Shown here: positions 4,715-26,701 of the stretch, piece by piece
How the letters are laid out: each line of letters starts with the position of its first letter
How positions within the stretch are numbered: position 1 is the stretch's first letter
From: Staphylococcus argenteus
Lineage (GTDB): Bacteria; Bacillota; Bacilli; Staphylococcales; Staphylococcaceae
Assembly (NCBI RefSeq): GCF_000236925.1
Contig: NC_016941.1
Coordinates: 1,984,001 to 2,048,000 of the forward strand
Direction of reading: 5' to 3'
Length of the DNA: 64,000 nt
Made by a program: the position numbers and the translations under genes
Notes under the pieces: model-generated
Databases searched by the model: none
Seen by the model: only the letters and a program-made list of their open reading frames with translations
Told to the model about the DNA's origin: nothing

Positions 4715-5854
4715 TTATAATGTTTCGCCACTATCGACAGGCTCAGATGTTGCTAACGCCAATTTGTGAACTGCTGCAGCTTTGTTATCAAAAGCTTTAC
4801 CATAAGCAAATTGCTTTGCAGTGTATAGCTCTAAATCTTCCAAAGCTAGCGTTTGATCAAACTTCTTGATGTTAATTCCTCCACCTAAGTATGCATGATA
4901 ACGACCTTCTACAAATGTAGTTACTTCTCCAGAAACTTGTGCTAGTGACTCAACAATATTCAAGTTAAATGGTAATGCAGTAACATATACACCTTGAGCA
5001 TTTAGGTGTGTGTATTGTGCTTGAATATCAAAAGCATCACTAGGATTAACAACCATGTGCACTTTACCTTTAACTGCAACTGCTTTGCCCTTTTCATTTA
5101 TTGAATGGTGTTTATATACTTTCGTCAACTCTAAAACTGTAGTTTTAGGGTCTTTAAAAGATAATGTAGATGTAATATCCTTTTTAGGATATTCGCCACC
5201 TGAAACAGACACACCCTCTTGAACTTGTCGAATCAAACCAATTGGTTGATCTTTACCTGTTCCATTTAAAAATGCTGCTTCTAATGCAACTGCAAAAGCT
5301 TCTTCAATTTGAATTTTCACGAATGATTCAATCCATGCAGGACCAAAGTCTTTTAAATCTTTTGGAATTACAACAAAAGCAGTCAACTTGTTTTGAATTG
5401 CTTCTTCTTCACTAAATGCTGCATCTAACTGGCCTTTAATTTCGCCGTGAATTTTACCCCAAACAGCTTGGCCTTTAGTTTCAGATTTTAAGAATTTCAA
5501 ACGTAATCCAACATTTTTCAACCCAATGACTTGTAATAACGGATGTGCCGTTGTTAAATCTTCAAAAATACGATCAATTGTTTCTTGCGGGATTAGTTTC
5601 TCTTCTTTGTAACCGACTTCTTTATTAATTTCATTGAAAAACTTGCGTTGTTCAGCATTCAACTTTTTATCGGCATTCGGCATATTTAAAATTCCTTCTG
5701 CTTCAGCTTTAGCTTGTGCTCTAGCTTCTTCAAATAATTCGTTAATCATATCAGAATATAACTGACCTTGTACTTCTTGAGACTCACCATTTTTTACTGC
5801 TTCTAAAAACTCTGTACGAGCATTTTTAAAATCATCACTTAATTTAACTGTCAT
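4715..5854 (-). CDS. Major capsid protein (HK97 fold)
   Basis: The chosen start (MTVKLSDDFKNARTEFLEAV, about 379 aa) has a GGGAGGT site 6 nt upstream; an in-frame ATG at 5878 lacks one. The N-terminal about 115 residues are a charged, helical scaffold-like delta domain (DMINELFEEARAQAKAEAEG) that the upstream ClpP-type protease probably removes. The rest has HK97 capsid features, including an SLSFKDPKTTVLELTKVY segment and a C-terminal TLALEDLELYTAKQFAYGKA region. It forms the icosahedral shell. It follows portal and protease in the normal order. Confidence 0.9.
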   Translation of the reverse strand: MTVKLSDDFKNARTEFLEAVKNGESQEVQGQLYSDMINELFEEARAQAKAEAEGILNMPNADKKLNAEQRKFFNEINKEVGYKEEKLIPQETIDRIFEDLTTAHPLLQVIGLKNVGLRLKFLKSETKGQAVWGKIHGEIKGQLDAAFSEEEAIQNKLTAFVVIPKDLKDFGPAWIESFVKIQIEEAFAVALEAAFLNGTGKDQPIGLIRQVQEGVSVSGGEYPKKDITSTLSFKDPKTTVLELTKVYKHHSINEKGKAVAVKGKVHMVVNPSDAFDIQAQYTHLNAQGVYVTALPFNLNIVESLAQVSGEVTTFVEGRYHAYLGGGINIKKFDQTLALEDLELYTAKQFAYGKAFDNKAAAVHKLALATSEPVDSGETL

Positions 5855-21159: not shown

Positions 21160-21321
21160 TTATTCTTCATAAAAGTATTCCTTATAGAATATGAATGTTG
21201 CGATACTTGCGAATCCTGCAATTGACCATGCTGTTGTGAAGTACAAAAATGGCATTAAACAAATCGCTAAGACTGTGAAGCACAGTACTGCTAATAGGTA
21301 GCTTTTATAAATGTTGCTCAT
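21160..21321 (-). CDS. Small two-segment membrane protein (DUF1270-like)
   Basis: A 53-aa frame begins MSNIYKSYLLAVLCFTVLAI and ends YKEYFYEE. It has two membrane segments (about 8-25 and 28-45). It matches the DUF1270 proteins of staphylococcal phages by recall. GGAGAGAATAAA precedes the ATG, which overlaps the stop of the gene before it. The function is unknown. Confidence 0.75.
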   Translation of the reverse strand: MSNIYKSYLLAVLCFTVLAICLMPFLYFTTAWSIAGFASIATFIFYKEYFYEE

Positions 21322-21638
21322 TTTATTCTCTCCTTATATATTTCATTGAAATGCTCATCGACGAATTTATTCATCTTTCTTGCGTTAAATCTCCAGCGAT
21401 TAAAATTCTCATCAGGGTAATGCACAATTCCTTGCGCTCTTAGTTCTTTTTCAAATCTAGGATGAAATAGTAATCTGTCCTTGATAGTCTCATCAGATGC
21501 AATTTTTAATTTCTTCTTTAAGTCACTCATGTTCCATACAGGGTCTAATGAATAACCAATTAGCTCATCGTATTCATCTTTTGTGATAAGTACATGTGTT
21601 TCAGGTATTGGAACTGTTACGTTTAAAATATGTGGCAT
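21318..21638 (-). CDS. DUF771-like protein with DNA-binding features
   Basis: The 106-aa protein has an N-terminal strand pair (MPHILNVTVPIPETHVLITK), a YDELIGYSLDPVWNMSDLKK helix and a winged-helix-like end (HYPDENFNRWRFNARKMNKF). DUF771 proteins in phages resemble excisionase or helix-turn-helix proteins. The Shine-Dalgarno lies within the promoter cassette of the divergent plus-strand gene at 21697. Confidence 0.7.
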   Translation of the reverse strand: MPHILNVTVPIPETHVLITKDEYDELIGYSLDPVWNMSDLKKKLKIASDETIKDRLLFHPRFEKELRAQGIVHYPDENFNRWRFNARKMNKFVDEHFNEIYKERIK

Positions 21639-21648
21639 TTCTATCTTT

Positions 21649-21690
21649 CCTTTCGTGTATAATGTTGTTATCTCCTAGTGAAAGGAGGTG
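21649..21690 (+). promoter_or_regulatory. Promoter/RBS cassette of plus-strand accessory gene A
   Basis: Bases 21649-21672 are identical to 23490-23513. The cassette has a consensus -10 TATAAT (21658-21663) and a near-perfect Shine-Dalgarno (AAAGGAGGTGAT, 21681-21692). No good -35 is visible. It overlaps the ribosome-binding region of the minus-strand DUF771-like gene. Confidence 0.65.
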
Positions 21691-21696
21691 ATATTG

Positions 21697-22329
21697 GTGT
21701 ATATTGATCCTTTAAAAAATGTTCGTTTTTCTATTAATAACGTAATTAGTAATGTTGAAATTTCTAAAAGTATGGCAATTAAACAATCTTTAAAACCTAA
21801 GTACCAATTAGATATAATTAATAGAAACAACATAAATTTATTTTCTGACTTCAAAGTAGACTTTCATCTAAACAACTTAATTGAAATGAATTTTAATTTG
21901 CGTAATTCTTTTTCATCTCTAACATTTCAAAGAAATTTATTTTCTGAAGAAACGATAAAATCTTTTAAGGAACTCTATAGGTTTGATGATGAGATTGTAC
22001 TTCAAGCACAACAGACCATTAGAGATTTTTATATCAATCCAACTGCTATCTCTACTTTGGCTGAAGCCATCAATTCGACCTATCCAATAAATGAGCAAAG
22101 TACCTACAAGAGACACGATGAATTTGTCAAACGTATCGAAAATGATTTTCCACATCCTTTCAAAAAGTTAATAAGATGGTCTAATGGCATTGCAGCAGGT
22201 GCTGACATTCAAATCTTTGTAACAAACTATATAAACGAGAACGATTTACATATTCAAAATTCATTGATAGTTGCTATAGTTTGTTTATTAAGTTTTTTAT
22301 CGACCTATTGTTCACATTCTAAAAAGTAA
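21697..22329 (+). CDS. Accessory plus-strand prophage gene A, unknown, C-terminal membrane anchor
   Basis: The gene runs against the early operon. GTG at 21697 (8 nt after AGGAGG) or TTG at 21694 starts a 210-aa protein. Most of it is a soluble, AT-rich-coded domain with no familiar motif (INRNNINLFSDFKVDFHLNN, SFSSLTFQRNLFSEETIKSF). The end LIVAIVCLLSFLSTYCS is a single membrane segment, which suggests a tail-anchored inner-membrane protein. Its own promoter implies expression in the lysogen. Superinfection exclusion or defence is a reasonable guess but is not shown. Confidence 0.6.
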   Translation: MYIDPLKNVRFSINNVISNVEISKSMAIKQSLKPKYQLDIINRNNINLFSDFKVDFHLNNLIEMNFNLRNSFSSLTFQRNLFSEETIKSFKELYRFDDEIVLQAQQTIRDFYINPTAISTLAEAINSTYPINEQSTYKRHDEFVKRIENDFPHPFKKLIRWSNGIAAGADIQIFVTNYINENDLHIQNSLIVAIVCLLSFLSTYCSHSKK

Positions 22330-22343
22330 TAATAAGGCCTAAT

Positions 22344-22484
22344 TTAGTTAACCTTCTTTAACAACTCTGCAACTGCTCGCAACAATTCAGGGTTGTTACT
22401 TCTTTCTAAACAGTAACTAGCATGCTTTAGTAATTTGAGTTTTAATTTATTTTTTTCTTTCGCGATTCTAAATTTTTGTAACAT
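22344..22484 (-). CDS. Small basic phage protein
   Basis: A 46-aa frame (MLQKFRIAKEKNKLKLKLLK) follows AAAGGAGGCATAACAA. It is basic and helical, with PELLRAVAELLKKVN at the end. It lies just after the convergent accessory gene A. Similar peptides follow the antirepressor in other staphylococcal phages. The function is unknown. Confidence 0.65.
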   Translation of the reverse strand: MLQKFRIAKEKNKLKLKLLKHASYCLERSNNPELLRAVAELLKKVN

Positions 22485-22514
22485 TTGTTATGCCTCCTTT
22501 GCATTTCCAAAAAT

Positions 22515-22712
22515 TTAATCTAACTTAAATTCTTTTCCATCTATTAATCCATAAAAGTTATTTTTTAAATGCGGATGTCTTTCAAGCGTCATTTCAATAA
22601 AACGCGGGTCTATCATTAAGTCGTAGCCATCGTTGTATTGAATATTAACGGGTCGTCTATTACCTTCTTCGTCATAGTAGTAATAGATGACTTTTTTGTT
22701 TTGAGCTTGCAT
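22515..22712 (-). CDS. Unknown small phage protein
   Basis: The 65-aa product begins MQAQNKKVIYYYYDEEGNRR and has a YDLMIDPRFIEMTLERHPHL segment. AGGAGGAACGAACA precedes the ATG. It lies directly downstream of the antirepressor gene, presumably in the same transcript. No family is recognised. Confidence 0.6.
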   Translation of the reverse strand: MQAQNKKVIYYYYDEEGNRRPVNIQYNDGYDLMIDPRFIEMTLERHPHLKNNFYGLIDGKEFKLD

Positions 22713-22727
22713 TGTTCGTTCCTCCTA

Positions 22728-23477
22728 TTAAGATGTTTGTTTTTCTCCTAAAAACTTATTAACAAAGTATTGTTGTCCTTTGCCTGTTACTTTTGGCGTC
22801 TTACTAATTGATGTGTGACCGTCCGAATGTGTGATTGATGTTTCTTTAATTTCGAATAACTCACGTTCCATTGAATACTGTGTAGGCATGTTATAATCCA
22901 CACCCTTGCGTTTAATAAGGAATCCGTTTTGACGTAACCACTCAAACAATCTGCGTTGCCCGATGTTTATACCGTTTTGTTTAATGATCTTTGCTAACTC
23001 TCCAACTAAAATTGATGTCTTAGTAGTAGCTACTGCATCTGCAAATACAATTTTTGGTTTATCACGTTCAATCTTTGTTTCTAATTGATTGATTGTGTTG
23101 TTAGCAATTTTTAAAGCACGTTGCATAATCATTTCTGGGCTATTCCATGCTTTTTCAACTTGGATGAAATACTCTCTAAAATCAAAACCTTTTTCTGTAC
23201 CTGACATCATCGCAACATGTTTAGCTACATCAAGTGTTAAAGCATAATCTTCTAGTTGTCTTACAGCTCCGTTATTAACAACCGTACTTGTAAGTACACT
23301 TGTAAAATCCCTATTTTCTTTGAAATGCTTCAAGTTAATTTCTGCCCAAGCGCTAAAACGCTTTTTAACTTCCAAAGCTTTATATAACTCTCTTGCACTT
23401 ATTGCGATTTCTCCGTTTTCTTTTTCTTGTATGTTGAACATTTCGCCGATGTTCGATTGCGTTTGTAATGCTTGCAT
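22728..23477 (-). CDS. Phage antirepressor (AntA/AntB + KilA-C type)
   Basis: The 249-aa protein has an N-terminal AntA/AntB-like domain (about 10-110: AISARELYKALEVKKRFSAW, LTLDVAKHVAMMSGTEKGFD) and a C-terminal ANT/KilA-C domain (about 140-245: ILVGELAKIIKQNGINIGQR, RLFEWLRQNGFLIKRKG). Such proteins counteract the cI-type repressor. It is the first large gene of the leftward early operon. The -10 of the divergent accessory gene B overlaps its ribosome-binding region. Confidence 0.88.
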   Translation of the reverse strand: MQALQTQSNIGEMFNIQEKENGEIAISARELYKALEVKKRFSAWAEINLKHFKENRDFTSVLTSTVVNNGAVRQLEDYALTLDVAKHVAMMSGTEKGFDFREYFIQVEKAWNSPEMIMQRALKIANNTINQLETKIERDKPKIVFADAVATTKTSILVGELAKIIKQNGINIGQRRLFEWLRQNGFLIKRKGVDYNMPTQYSMERELFEIKETSITHSDGHTSISKTPKVTGKGQQYFVNKFLGEKQTS

Positions 23478-23489
23478 ATTGTTTATGCT

Positions 23490-23527
23490 CCTTTCGTGTA
23501 TAATGTTGTTATCAACCTAAGGAGGTG
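23490..23527 (+). promoter_or_regulatory. Promoter/RBS cassette of plus-strand accessory gene B
   Basis: Bases 23490-23513 duplicate the cassette before gene A, with TATAAT at 23499-23504 and AAGGAGGTGATA right after. The downstream 12-14 bases differ slightly in length between copies. It lies immediately 5' of the antirepressor start on the other strand. Confidence 0.65.
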
Positions 23528-23533
23528 ATAAGT

Positions 23534-24073
23534 ATGGACATAATCGCGATTTGTATCGCAATTTTTAGTTTCTTACTGACTGCACTTAAATATTATTTAG
23601 ACTATATGAAAGATTCTCTTAACATCGATGTTATACCTACCAGAAGCTTTAATTACTTGGTCGATGACAAATCAAGTTACAACGATATAACATTTATTAA
23701 TTTCACAAAGTTTCCCATTTCTGTTATTGACGTTGAATTTGATATTAAAAATAAAGTAAATGAACAAAAAACGTTCAAACCTATACGATATAAAGATAAA
23801 AACTACTCCATTCCATTTACTTTAGGACCTTATGAAAGTGTTGAATGTACTTTTTTGCTCGAAGAATATCCAGTGATATGGGAATGGGATGTGACTATCA
23901 AAGTCACTACCAACAAAGGAATCTATATAAAGCCTGTTATCATAGAATCGCGGACAGAACACCGAGAATCAGAGCCACAAGTGACAGAGTTAACATCAGC
24001 AAATAAGGTAAGTGCTCTTTCCAACCCCAAGGATGGTTTTTTAAAGAAGTTTTTATATCATTTAAAACCTTAA
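23534..24073 (+). CDS. Accessory plus-strand prophage gene B, membrane-anchored, unknown
   Basis: The ATG at 23534 lies 8 nt after AGGAGG; the product is 179 aa. Residues 1-22 (MDIIAICIAIFSFLLTALKY) form a membrane anchor, followed by a short linker and a beta-rich soluble domain (ITFINFTKFPISVIDVEFDI, YESVECTFLLEEYPVIWEWD, VTIKVTTNKGIYIKPVI) resembling an Ig-like sandwich. The tail is charged and variable. I know no family. It is transcribed from the same cassette as gene A, so both are likely lysogen-expressed. Confidence 0.6.
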   Translation: MDIIAICIAIFSFLLTALKYYLDYMKDSLNIDVIPTRSFNYLVDDKSSYNDITFINFTKFPISVIDVEFDIKNKVNEQKTFKPIRYKDKNYSIPFTLGPYESVECTFLLEEYPVIWEWDVTIKVTTNKGIYIKPVIIESRTEHRESEPQVTELTSANKVSALSNPKDGFLKKFLYHLKP

Positions 24074-24094
24074 ACATTTAAAATCCTCCCTTTC

Positions 24095-24128
24095 CGTCAC
24101 TCTTTAATTGGAGTGGCGTTGATTTTTT
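24095..24128 (+). terminator. Terminator after accessory gene B
   Basis: A stem of CACTC with GAGTG (24098-24102, 24111-24115), extended by three outer pairs, is followed by TTGATTTTTT. It overlaps the end of the convergent minus-strand gene. It would complete a self-contained promoter-gene-terminator module. Confidence 0.5.
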
Positions 24129-24357
24129 CGTCTAACTTTTTCAATGCTAATTTGTAAATAACTGAAGCATGTTCGGTTTTAAAATGAGATTCAGCAATAA
24201 TTTTCAATGTTTCTAATTTATTTCTTGCATCACCGTATGTGGTACTTTCTGATAGAACACCTTCTAAAATTTGTTGAACTCGATAATCTAAAAGTTTTAA
24301 GTCTTTATTGATGCATTGTTCGACACACTCTTCTTCGGTTAACGTGATTTGTTCCAT
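24097..24357 (-). CDS. Unknown early phage protein
   Basis: The start MEQITLTEEECVEQCINKDL (86 aa) has AAGGAGGGACACA upstream; an earlier ATG at 24378 precedes that site. It is an acidic helical protein with ARNKLETLKIIAESHFKTEH and LALKKLDEKINA. It lies between the Cro-like gene and the antirepressor. The function is unknown. Confidence 0.6.
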   Translation of the reverse strand: MEQITLTEEECVEQCINKDLKLLDYRVQQILEGVLSESTTYGDARNKLETLKIIAESHFKTEHASVIYKLALKKLDEKINATPIKE

Positions 24358-24372
24358 TGTGTCCCTCCTTAA

Positions 24373-24389
24373 GTTCATATAACATGAAC
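24373..24389. promoter_or_regulatory. Repressor operator-like site
   Basis: GTTCA-N7-TGAAC, a 17-bp palindrome, recurs exactly at 24618-24634 and with one change at 24679-24695. This copy lies between the Cro-like gene and its downstream gene. All three are probably bound by the cI-like repressor, the Cro-like protein, or both. Confidence 0.65.
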
Positions 24390-24599
24390 TTTTTCTTTAA
24401 AAAAATATAAGTGTATTTTCTCTACCGGTATATCTAGTAGTTGTATAGCTTTCCATATTTCACTGTCTTTCCAACCAACTTTACCGTTGAGTTTTAAGGA
24501 TAAACTTCTCTCTGACAATTTCATAGCAATTGCAAAATTGTACTGAGTGCCATACTTTTCTACTATTTTCCCACTCAAACGTGAGTAGTCGTAACACAT
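24375..24599 (-). CDS. Cro-like repressor (DUF739-like)
   Basis: The start MCYDYSRLSGKIVEKYGTQY (74 aa) follows GAGGAGGTGCTTTT. Residues about 18-60 form a helix-turn-helix (NFAIAMKLSERSLSLKLNGK) like DUF739/Cro proteins. It is divergent from the cI-like gene and first in the leftward operon, so it should compete with cI for the operators. The stop overlaps an operator copy. Confidence 0.82.
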   Translation of the reverse strand: MCYDYSRLSGKIVEKYGTQYNFAIAMKLSERSLSLKLNGKVGWKDSEIWKAIQLLDIPVEKIHLYFFKEKVHVI

Positions 24600-24617
24600 A
24601 AAAGCACCTCCTCTCAA

Positions 24618-24731
24618 GTTCACGTATCATGAACTTAAATATACTTTACACCTTGTTTTGAATCAAGCCAATACAAAAATTCATGATTTATGAACTTTTT
24701 TGTTGAATTTTTGTTCAACAAGCTTTATTAT
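24618..24731. promoter_or_regulatory. Lysogeny switch: divergent promoters and operators
   Basis: Leftward promoter: -35 TTGATT and -10 TATATT on the minus strand (24661-24666, 24638-24643; 17-bp spacer). Rightward cI promoter: -35 TTGAAT (24703-24708), -10 TATTAT (24726-24731), 17-bp spacer. Operators GTTCA-N7-TGAAC lie at 24618-24634 (over the leftward start) and, with one mismatch, at 24679-24695. A further palindrome GTTGAA-N6-TTCAAC (24702-24719) overlaps the cI -35. The layout fits mutual repression. Confidence 0.75.
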
Positions 24732-24757: not shown

Positions 24758-25528
24758 ATGAGAGAAAAAGTTTCAAATAGACTTAAACACATTATGAAAA
24801 TAAGAAACTTAAAACAAGTAGATATCATTAATAAATCGAAACCTTATCAAAAGAAACTAGGTATATCTTTAAGTAAAAGCACTTTATCTCAATATATTAA
24901 CGACGTACAATCACCCGACCAAGATAGAATTTACCTACTTTCTAAAACTCTGAACGTTGGTGAAGCGTGGCTTATGGGGTATGATGTAGATTCTTATCGA
25001 GTTCCTGATGAAGAACGTCAAGATGAAACGATAATGTCAAAAATCAATAACATATTTTCTCAACTCACACCTCCCCGCCAAGAAAACGTACTTAACTATG
25101 CAAATGAACATTTGGAAGAACAGAATAAAGTCACTTCTATAGATGGATATAAAGAGTCTAAACTAGTATCGTATATTGCATGTGGTGCAACTGGTGCTGG
25201 CATAGGAGAAGAATTATATGATGACATATTACATGAAGAAGTATTTTTTAAAGAAGACGAAACGCCATCAAATGCTGATTTTTGTATTTTAGTTAATGGT
25301 GATTCAATGGAACCTATGTTAAAACAAGGAACATACGCTTTTATTAAGAAAGAAGATTCTATTAAAGATGGTACAATTGCACTCGTTGTATTAGATGGAG
25401 TAAGTCTTATCAAGCGTGTAGATATATGCGAAGACTATATTAATTTGGTATCTCTAAATCCGAAGTATGATGATATCAAAGTCGCTTCGTTTAGTGATAT
25501 TAAAGTAATGGGCAAAGTTGTATTGTGA
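24758..25528 (+). CDS. cI-like repressor with LexA-type S24 peptidase domain
   Basis: The 256-aa protein has an N-terminal helix-turn-helix (about 15-75: LKQVDIINKSKPYQKKLGIS, SKSTLSQYINDVQSPDQDRI) and a C-terminal S24 domain with Ser183 in VNGDSMEPM and Lys219 in DGVSLIKRV. A candidate cleavage region is CGATGAGIGEE (142-152), with an Ala-Gly pair. RecA-stimulated self-cleavage would allow SOS induction. It keeps the lytic promoters off. GGAGGTGCACTAA precedes the ATG. Confidence 0.92.
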   Translation: MREKVSNRLKHIMKIRNLKQVDIINKSKPYQKKLGISLSKSTLSQYINDVQSPDQDRIYLLSKTLNVGEAWLMGYDVDSYRVPDEERQDETIMSKINNIFSQLTPPRQENVLNYANEHLEEQNKVTSIDGYKESKLVSYIACGATGAGIGEELYDDILHEEVFFKEDETPSNADFCILVNGDSMEPMLKQGTYAFIKKEDSIKDGTIALVVLDGVSLIKRVDICEDYINLVSLNPKYDDIKVASFSDIKVMGKVVL

Positions 25529-25920: not shown

Positions 25921-25947
25921 CAAAAAACGTCTACAAGTGTAGACGTT
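25921..25947 (-). terminator. Hairpin with minus-strand U-run
   Basis: A perfect 9-bp stem (25926-25934 with 25939-25947), loop AAGT, is followed on the minus strand by a T-run (complement of 25922-25927). It could stop stray leftward transcription entering the repressor genes. On the plus strand it precedes the PemK-like gene without a T-run. Confidence 0.5.
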
Positions 25948-26701
25948 GAATGGTGGTGAGAGTGTGAGCGAGAATAAAGGAGAAATGATGACGCATAATA
26001 TAGAAAAACGCATTAATAAATTAAAAACTTCTGGAAATCCAAAATTTAAAAAATTAGATTCAGATATTCACTATTTACTCAAGAGATTTGAAGGTGAAAA
26101 AAACCATAAAGGTTTTTATCCAAAGTTTAAACAAGGAGAAATAGTTTTTGTAGATTTCGGTATAAACGTTAATAAAGAATTCTCTAATTCACACTTTGCA
26201 ATAGTGATGAATAAAAATGATTCTAATACGGAAGATATAGTAAATGTTATTCCCTTATCTTCTAAAGAAAACAAAAAGTATTTAAAGATGAATTTTGATT
26301 TGAAATGGGAGTATTATTTAAGATTGTTTTTAAATTTAATTAGCGCGCAAAATAATTCAGCTATATTAAAAGAAGTTTTCGATAAAAAATACCAAAAAAA
26401 CAACACAGAATTCATCACTAAAGATTATTTTAGTGAATTTATATCTGATAGTTTAGAAATTGAAAATAAATTAAATAAAATTGACAGAAACATTAATAAC
26501 ATAGTATCAGCAATTGATAAGGTAAAAAAATTAAAAGGTAATAGTTACGCTTGCATAAATTCTTTCCAGCCGATTAGTAAGTTTCGCATAAGAAAAGTTT
26601 TACCCCAAAAAATTAAAAATCCAGTAATAGATTCTTCGGATATTATGTTACTGATAAATAGAATTAATAATAATATATTGCAGATTCCTGATATAAGATG
26701 A
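25946..26701 (+). CDS. PemK/MazF-like toxin-family protein with helical extension
   Basis: The open frame is 251 codons. The likely start is the second ATG of MMTHNIEKRINKLKTSG (near 25988), 5 nt after AAAGGAG, giving about 237 aa; a GTG at 25964 is possible. Residues about 60-125 of the frame (YPKFKQGEIVFVDFGINVNK, HFAIVMNKNDSN, IVNVIPLSS) match the PemK/MazF SH3-like beta-barrel, with R/S/T-type catalytic residues unclear. The C-terminal 110 residues are helical and charged. MazF enzymes cut RNA. No antitoxin gene is visible. The coding sequence is very AT-rich, suggesting acquisition. Confidence 0.65.
   Translation: MNGGESVSENKGEMMTHNIEKRINKLKTSGNPKFKKLDSDIHYLLKRFEGEKNHKGFYPKFKQGEIVFVDFGINVNKEFSNSHFAIVMNKNDSNTEDIVNVIPLSSKENKKYLKMNFDLKWEYYLRLFLNLISAQNNSAILKEVFDKKYQKNNTEFITKDYFSEFISDSLEIENKLNKIDRNINNIVSAIDKVKKLKGNSYACINSFQPISKFRIRKVLPQKIKNPVIDSSDIMLLINRINNNILQIPDIR

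Follow-up and report, generated by a model that had tools for sequence, protein, structure and literature searches.

The 64,000-nucleotide stretch of Staphylococcus argenteus DNA analysed here (NCBI RefSeq assembly GCF_000236925.1, contig NC_016941.1, positions 1,984,001 to 2,048,000; the window) contains a prophage in which two unrelated plus-strand genes, A and B, each follow a copy of the same 25-bp block inside an early lytic operon transcribed from the minus strand. The block recurs in many staphylococcal phages, in front of many different genes (the cargo) and beside many different lytic genes (the neighbours). We propose that it is a portable promoter with two faces, that the swappable cargo behind it is expressed in the lysogen and most likely protects it, and that antisense transcription shuts the cargo off upon induction; we put the probability of this explanation as a whole at roughly 0.7. 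The observations behind it are the identity of the block, the mixing of cargo and neighbours, the boundaries at which they are swapped, the conservation of the coding sequences and the association of cargo with a small convergent partner gene.

A proposed promoter block with two faces

The two copies of the block, TCCTTTCGTGTATAATGTTGTTATC, are identical with zero mismatches. Searches allowing up to 3 mismatches returned only these two copies, both in the window (with no match in 100 shuffles) and in the whole host genome. The original prediction, made from the sequence alone, had described a 24-bp identity (21649-21672 and 23490-23513) that holds TATAAT and is followed by a near-perfect ribosome-binding site (RBS), with two different opposite-strand genes downstream, each having one membrane segment and no known family. 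This description is borne out: the true identical stretch is 25 bp long, both copies hold TATAAT, and RBSs of the AAGGAGG type precede the start codons of A and B. Both frames are open and fall into separate blastp clusters. Each protein contains a single strongly hydrophobic segment, which spans residues 183-208 in A and residues 1-23 in B. No Pfam or NCBIfam family was found for either, and their PHROGs matches are families of unknown function: A matches 4768 and, weakly, 7948, and B matches 10240 and, weakly, 17486.

The block opens with TCCTTTC, which reads GAAAGGA on the minus strand and is there the RBS of the divergent gene, a DUF771 gene at copy 1 and an antirepressor gene at copy 2. 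Among the 181 distinct contexts described below, the distance to the start chosen for the divergent gene is 9-12 bases in 150 and 1 base in 20; no such start was found in 11. On the plus strand the block reads TATAAT inside and ATC at its end; a consensus promoter scan listed neither window copy. On the lytic strand the block would act as the RBS of an early-operon gene. On the other strand it would supply the cargo with its -10 box and with the beginning of its transcript, and the cargo leader is predicted to fold at its 5' end around its own RBS.

The leaders that follow the block belong to several sequence types (AACCTAAGGAGG, TCCTAGTGAAAGGAGG, CCTTTATGAAGGGAGG and GCTACTGCGATAGTGG). The mean folding energy of 81 distinct leaders is -6.0 kcal/mol versus -3.3 kcal/mol for shuffles, with a rank of 0.1 or better in 42 of them, and in 66 the predicted helix starts no later than base 5 and takes in 3 or more bases of the RBS. 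The pairing register of the hairpin varies among leader types, and a search of Rfam gave two matches, both under the gathering scores. Another type of promoter, in which AAGGAGG or GAGGAGG comes after CTCCTTTCTGCTATACTCCT, was seen at the same position before other cargo (L144, L327 and loci of neighbour M3); its cargo include open reading frames (ORFs) resembling DUF2513, and it also adjoins ant45, the small ORF opposite the end of gene B.

Exchange of cargo and neighbours

Loci were collected from the IMG/VR matches listed for the exact block (at least 120 stretches) and for a variant of it (at least 120), from genome scans and from phi13. They were chosen for holding the block, and the counts of cargo, neighbours and partners given here are among the matches listed. 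With up to 2 substitutions allowed and TATAAT intact, they hold at least 399 copies in at least 275 loci, which represent 181 distinct local contexts; 12 of these have no cargo ORF and 11 no recognised divergent ORF. Clustering by blastp (1e-3) gave 37 cargo and 23 neighbour clusters. Cargo C31 and neighbour M16 (both from the L270 match described below), cargo C34 (no RBS found) and cargo C36 (a 30-aa remnant) were left out of the final counts, leaving 34 cargo and 22 neighbour clusters. Where both members are known, 80 combinations occur, with at least two cargo at 13 of 20 neighbours and at least two neighbours for 18 of 34 cargo. The cargo clusters are not wholly independent, as the gene B profile matches a gene in genome G037 (expectation value (E) 3.7e-5) that sits at the place of the C22 cargo.

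Pairwise identity profiles, computed for 155 contexts before the doubtful clusters were excluded, change at the block. Contexts with the same neighbour and different cargo (1422 pairs) have an identity of 0.76 in the 30 upstream bases and of 0.28-0.36 from 40 bases past the block start. With the same cargo and different neighbours (400 pairs) the identity is 0.28-0.33 upstream, 0.47 in the last 15 bases and 0.47-0.65 downstream. When both differ (9923 pairs), the block itself has an identity of 0.85-1.00; this drops to 0.42-0.46 over the adjoining 15-16 bases on either side and is near background farther out. Because the block is shared and both flanks are not, recombination in the block can swap cargo, and homologous recombination there is the probable route by which cargo would move between phages and between positions.

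The block was found, at up to 3 mismatches, in 25 of 84 Staphylococcus genomes (reversed control, 0 of 84), and the 56-base context of copy 2 is matched by 302 of 50,697 phage records, 298 of which are Staphylococcus phages. One record, OP712483 ("Pseudomonas phage PSV3"), is probably mislabelled, since it is 99% identical to DNA of staphylococcal phages. The sole non-staphylococcal genome match (1 of 16 stretches), at 6473-6496 of L270 from a Synergistales metagenome-assembled genome, was treated as chance, since by our own arithmetic about 0.23 matches are expected in that genome collection.

The neighbour genes also occur without the block. For nine neighbour families in the collected loci there are 637 gene starts, 367 with the block and 270 without it, the latter coming from loci fetched for other blocks. 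Neither TATAAT nor TATACT lies within 60 bases of 226 of the block-less starts; TATAAT is present at 36, some of which are variant or truncated blocks, and TATACT at 8. Blocks that run into other phage sequence with no cargo were seen in L007, L022, L228, L240, L250, L277 and at 5339-5362 of 80alpha (L276). Such cargo-less blocks are probably scars of cargo loss; by eye, several of the 12 cargo-less contexts resemble deletion scars that adjoin the preceding lytic gene or the tail of gene B.

From the sequence comparison, then, the block, its exchange and the opposite-strand design can be regarded as established. The cassette search that the original prediction had proposed finds variable cargo behind the block in relatives, as anticipated, but beside about 22 types of neighbour gene and not in one slot.

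The convergent lytic-strand partner

In 127 of 158 instances the tail of the cargo meets a small lytic-strand ORF that has its own RBS, and in 110 the two overlap. We compared 68 distinct triplets of cargo, neighbour and partner (120 instances). The partner is shared in 57 of 88 pairs with the same cargo and different neighbours, in 24 of 247 pairs with the same neighbour and different cargo, and in 108 of 1938 pairs in which both differ. The partner thus tracks the cargo and not the neighbour, which suggests that block, cargo and partner often move together; the exchanged unit would then often include a small lytic-strand gene whose end overlaps the cargo tail.

Opposite gene B lies ant45, whose RBS is kept although the surrounding sequence differs. 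The ratio of nonsynonymous to synonymous change (pN/pS) is 0.19-0.56 in the ant45 frame versus 0.67-3.1 in the gene B frame, in a small sample of 8 sequences with at most 20 differences per pair. Judged by these ratios ant45 appears to be under purifying selection, and the comparison of the two frames suggests that the tail of gene B is shaped by ant45. IMG/VR holds 76 ant45 loci, 41 with gene B and 35 without the gene B body. In 34 of the 35 the distance between a copy of the block and a landmark common to the ant45 regions is 169 nt, which looks like a deletion of gene B that spared ant45. The occurrence of ant45 without gene B fits an antidote kept as anti-immunity and also fits an ordinary lytic gene; ant45 is a possible antidote to gene B.

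Genes A and B

The relatives of gene A keep residues 78-135 at 40-54 of 58 positions. In all but the three closest of 17 relatives, only 7-23 of the 51-63 aligned positions among the first 70 residues are kept. The pN/pS of the family is 0.39-0.59 at 56-92% identity and 0.74-0.94 at 21-40% identity, where pS is already 0.5-0.7. The relatives P0001-P0022 look mosaic, with a conserved core and unrelated-looking N-termini, and P0018-P0020 have a different C-terminal half. A mosaic of this kind would be the pattern seen in proteins that change what they sense. The HEPN motif takes forms such as R-x6-H; gene A contains a single R-x6-H stretch, but its relatives do not keep the R, so that it has no conserved HEPN motif like that of Tha, a phage defence protein discussed below, and no HEPN motif was found in gene B.

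The AlphaFold2 model of gene B is of moderate confidence (predicted local distance difference test, pLDDT, 64) and has an N-terminal membrane helix, a predicted beta-sandwich and a low-confidence tail. The pN/pS is 0.22 for the sole divergent relative and 0.62 for a truncated, near-identical relative. An N-terminal hydrophobic segment is likewise present in cargo C15 and C22.

Functions of the cargo

At E 0.001, Pfam assigns Abi_alpha, DUF2321, DUF2513 and Phage_80a_gp11 among the 34 cargo representatives; a Cas2-like match falls below the Pfam cut-off, and DZR and TPD1_C are sub-threshold. The Abi_alpha cargo of L009 (285 aa) matches PF14337 with E 8.8e-45 and the PADLOC model PDC-S47 with E 3.8e-43; 80alpha gp19, which is annotated as DUF4393, also carries the block. 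A very basic 56-aa cargo (L148, 1550-1717, plus strand) matches PDC-S38 over its full length with E 9.8e-31. PDC presumably stands for phage defence candidate. Weak PADLOC matches were obtained for the Cas2-like cargo of L129 (E 1.9e-5) and, to part of PtuA, for cargo C17 (E 2.1e-4). Abi-alpha is a demonstrated anti-phage protein of prophage 6 of E. faecalis (PMC6356687). The matches of the Abi_alpha cargo and the 56-aa cargo to defence models, the Cas2-like cargo and an architecture shared with the systems Tha and Tai would favour a defence role, and defence by genes A and B themselves is likely but unproven.

Expression in lysogens and upon induction

Transcription start sites have been mapped in replication-deficient phi13 lysogens. 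Two genes of the lytic region, SAOUHSC_02218 and SAOUHSC_02232, the latter adjacent to ant, are reported to be transcribed there in the lysogenic direction (PMC9694928). By position, SAOUHSC_02232 would be the counterpart of gene B, and SAOUHSC_02218 would be the Cas2-like ORF that lies in front of rep on the opposite strand. In phi13 a copy of the block stands before this ORF and before the gene adjacent to ant. Two block-preceded genes are unannotated in the phi13 record (NC_004617), namely gene A (L001, 3550-4230) and the opposite-strand ORF of 93 aa before rep (C26; L407, about 789, minus strand). RNA sequencing of an esaB mutant lists SAOUHSC_02232 (+16.7), SAOUHSC_02218 (+25.9) and the phage repressor gene SAOUHSC_02084 (+17.7), all up (PMC5845737, Table 2).

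Direct RNA sequencing of 80alpha by Rostol et al. (2024) covered three further opposite-strand regions, which the figure legend names orf11, orf17 and orf72. According to the same legend, orf11 and orf19 switch clearly once the prophage is induced, whereas orf72 has no transcript from the opposite strand (PMC11087260). We read the second region as orf19, since this is the gene annotated on the opposite strand at that place. The block precedes 80alpha gp11 (22 of 24 bases) and gp19 (20 of 24 bases). A search of the whole 80alpha record at 3 mismatches returned only the gp11 copy and the scar at 5339-5362 and missed the gp19 copy, so that orf72 was searched at a lesser depth.

Expression in lysogens has been published for relatives and fits the proposed mechanism. 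In the lysogen, CI would silence the early operon while the cargo is transcribed from its own promoter. Upon induction, early transcription would cross the cargo in antisense and lower its expression, as in published noncontiguous operons. The cargo, including A and B, would most likely protect the lysogen against other phages. The original prediction had named silence of the cassettes in lysogens as an outcome that would overturn it; the transcription of the phi13 gene next to ant in the lysogenic direction speaks otherwise (PMC9694928). Its idea of an exchangeable slot for lysogen-expressed genes is well supported as far as exchange and expression are concerned, but the positions are of many types, the block also serves the minus-strand gene, and the unit often includes the convergent gene.

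Alternative explanations

Several results weigh against the portable promoter with protective cargo. The 24 block positions scored in 169 contexts (group-weighted) are conserved at 87-100%, apart from two positions that follow the -10 box and precede the start, at 51% and 59%. Part of this conservation comes from the search pattern itself, in which TATAAT was obligatory, four positions were free and up to 2 substitutions were permitted elsewhere. No conserved -35 box was found across the block contexts, which makes the strength of the promoter uncertain, and the terminator scan described below found no terminator-like site directly after gene A. Because the loci were selected by the block and the IMG/VR matches are only those listed, the frequencies are biased. 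The partners are not specific to their cargo, as 9 of the 21 families of partners are each found with several cargo. The automatic rule counts an ORF as a partner when it starts past the end of the cargo; ant45 starts only 4 bases past gene B and is therefore not picked by it, and the tests of ant45 are separate. With regard to defence, 30 of the 34 cargo representatives have no PADLOC match at E 0.001 (4 have one). Gene B has no PADLOC match, and gene A has a 35-residue match to SIR2 (E 0.0018) and nothing else. The AlphaFold2 model of gene A is unusable (pLDDT 38), and the Foldseek matches of gene B are weak and to generic beta-sandwiches (ApaG, DUF4352 and others), from which no function was drawn.

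The original prediction had itself raised the prospect that the block is only a leader of the minus-strand gene with no variable cargo in relatives. A block conserved mainly as the leader of a lytic gene, with incidental cargo ORFs, would account for the neighbour RBS in its first half, for the 9-12 bases between that RBS and the start in most contexts and for the 12 copies without a cargo ORF. The cargo is very variable, though, and most block-less starts of the same neighbour families (226 of 270) have no TATAAT or TATACT nearby; these starts and the pN/pS of the gene A family (0.39-0.59) and of the gene B family (0.22 for one divergent relative) largely refute this reading, which we reject as very improbable. 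It is harder still to credit that the two window copies are a recent local duplication of no wider meaning. Their identity would be explained, but the occurrence in 25 Staphylococcus genomes, the 302 phage records that match the context of copy 2 and the unrelated flanks led us to discard it.

Two further readings accept the cargo and differ about its role; we think each of them unlikely. The cargo could be lysogen-expressed regulators or fitness genes, acting for example by antisense tuning of the lytic switch or on the host, and not against phages. Most cargo representatives are small and have no predicted membrane segment or defence annotation, and the transcription of gene B points towards the first lytic genes, though a terminator-like site follows gene B. 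The high turnover among about 34 clusters, of which one is Abi_alpha and another a PADLOC candidate, is more in keeping with an arms race than with regulation of a fixed kind, and the conserved core and variable N-terminus of the gene A family also tell against this account. The cargo and its convergent small ORF could, on the other hand, form a self-limiting pair of lysogen defence and lytic-cycle antidote, like Tha/Ith and Tai/Ati. The overlap of ant45 with gene B, its retained RBS, its lower pN/pS and the tracking of cargo by partners all point this way, but the 35 ant45 loci without the gene B body also fit an ordinary lytic gene, and partners are common to unrelated cargo. We are similarly doubtful of a bolder form of this idea, in which the block is a standard plug-in immunity socket for dozens of lysogen-expressed anti-phage genes at about 20 positions, each with a convergent, lytic-only small protein that spares the phage; ant45 would then be that of gene B, kept after the loss of B as anti-immunity against gene-B lysogens.

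The prophage region

The window prophage is close to phi13 (NC_004617), with 99.4% identity over 21600-24110; the phi13 record annotates gene B (phi13_06) and leaves gene A unannotated. Genes A and B lie on the plus strand inside the minus-strand early operon, as opposite-strand genes of a noncontiguous operon do. The features are listed in Table 1. A scan of 4.1 kb returned four terminator-like sites, where shuffles give 1.6. Between the repressor and integrase genes, at 25946-26701 on the plus strand, lies a gene for a PemK/MazF-like protein (Pfam E 1.7e-6), for which the best PHROGs family is mazE-like. The gene at 24375-24623 is taken to be mor from its position and from the description of the CI/Mor switch (PMC9694928).

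Table 1. Features of the prophage early region in window coordinates.
Feature	Position	Strand	Remarks
DUF771 gene, divergent early-operon neighbour ("slot gene") of copy 1	21318-21638	-	domain match
Block, copy 1	21648-21672	+	reverse complement of DUF771 gene RBS 21648-21654; -10 TATAAT 21658-21663; presumed transcript start A 21670, from -10 spacing and 5' hairpin
Leader of gene A	21670-21696	+	predicted 5'-terminal hairpin containing the AAAGGAGG RBS at 21681-21688; folding energy -8.1 kcal/mol
Gene A, 210 aa, GTG start	21697-22329	+	C-terminal hydrophobic segment; core conserved, N-terminus variable
46-aa lytic-strand gene, phrog_1263	22344-22484	-	convergent with gene A, no overlap; resembles partner family P2
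65-aa early lytic gene, phrog_845	22515-22712	-	PHROGs match
Antirepressor gene (AntA and ANT domains), divergent neighbour of copy 2	22728-23477	-	domain and PHROGs matches
Block, copy 2	23489-23513	+	reverse complement of antirepressor RBS 23489-23495; -10 TATAAT 23499-23504; presumed transcript start A 23511
Leader of gene B	23511-23533	+	AAGGAGG 23519-23525; weaker predicted 5' hairpin, folding energy -4.5 kcal/mol
Gene B, 179 aa, ATG start	23534-24073	+	N-terminal membrane helix 2-26; predicted beta-sandwich 31-136; low-confidence tail overlapping ant45
ant45, 45-aa ORF, phrog_19527	23940-24077	-	one hydrophobic segment; antisense to last 134 nt of gene B; own RBS
Terminator-like site after gene B	24095-24128	+ (cargo strand)	9-pair stem then TTGATTTTTT
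Early lytic gene, phrog_6175	24097-24378	-	between ant45 and switch region
First early gene of lytic operon	24375-24623	-	counterpart of phi13_04 (DUF739); taken to be mor of CI/Mor switch
Counterpart of phi13_03 "transcriptional regulator"	24758-25528	+	taken to be the CI repressor gene

Relation to known systems

The block provides one searchable signature that lists probable lysogeny-expressed genes across Staphylococcus prophages, most of them of unknown function and some unannotated. If even some of the cargo is anti-phage, the block would be a direct route to new immune systems and their antidotes and would explain how phages could trade such genes without disturbing the operon around them. 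This has a bearing on which lytic phages work against lysogenic S. aureus.

Tha/Ith of 80alpha and phiNM2 is similar in that an immune gene that is on in lysogeny is opposed by a small, overlapping antisense lytic gene (PMC11087260). Tha belongs to the lysogeny module, where the cI promoter drives it (PMC11087260), whereas A and B lie in the lytic region with their own predicted promoter and without a conserved HEPN motif. The candidate for an Ith-like gene here is ant45, which overlaps gene B in antisense, is apparently under purifying selection and may be an inhibitor. In Tai/Ati of phi80 a lysogen-expressed immune gene likewise lies opposite a lytic operon that holds its counter-gene; that operon is an E. 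coli late operon and the immune protein belongs to a single family, and the accessible text mentions no shared promoter hinge (PMC11364771). PdpSau is also a membrane-anchored prophage protein that protects S. aureus against phages, but it has 278 aa and is encoded beside the amidase in the lysis module (PMC10127798); A and B are found instead between DUF771, the antirepressor and the switch region.

The antiviral hotspots of P2 and P4 share with the block a high turnover of defence genes at fixed phage positions, but their slot lies between two conserved genes, whereas the conserved part here is a promoter block beside many genes (PMC9122126). Abi-alpha (DUF4393, PF14337), an E. faecalis prophage gene with its own promoter that acts by abortive infection, is one cargo family of the cassette (PMC6356687). 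Genes A and B are not members of it, as they have no PF14337 domain. In virulent coliphages of the T4 type, "promoter early stem-loop" cassettes consist of a small promoter and a stem-loop and are thought to spread between genes and to promote module shuffling. In contrast, the block belongs to temperate staphylococcal phages, is antisense to the operon and has no conserved -35 box; its -10 box and a predicted leader hairpin occur in many contexts.

Morons typically have their own promoter and terminator and are variably present; here there is a -10 box without a conserved -35 box, a terminator-like site after gene B only, and variable presence. Noncontiguous operons were reportedly first described by Saenz-Lahoya in 2019. 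In S. aureus, including its prophages, they resemble the present loci in their expression switch between lysogeny and lysis (PMC11087260, PMC9694928). In the accessible literature on noncontiguous operons, with subscription papers mostly outside the search, we found no account of a promoter block that many genes have in common, of the exchange of some 34 cargo clusters or of a design with two faces. The published genes 80alpha orf11 and orf19 stand at loci that carry the block, and phi13 SAOUHSC_02232 and SAOUHSC_02218 stand at loci that apparently do (PMC11087260, PMC9694928). We would call the genes behind the block noncontiguous-operon morons united by a portable promoter.

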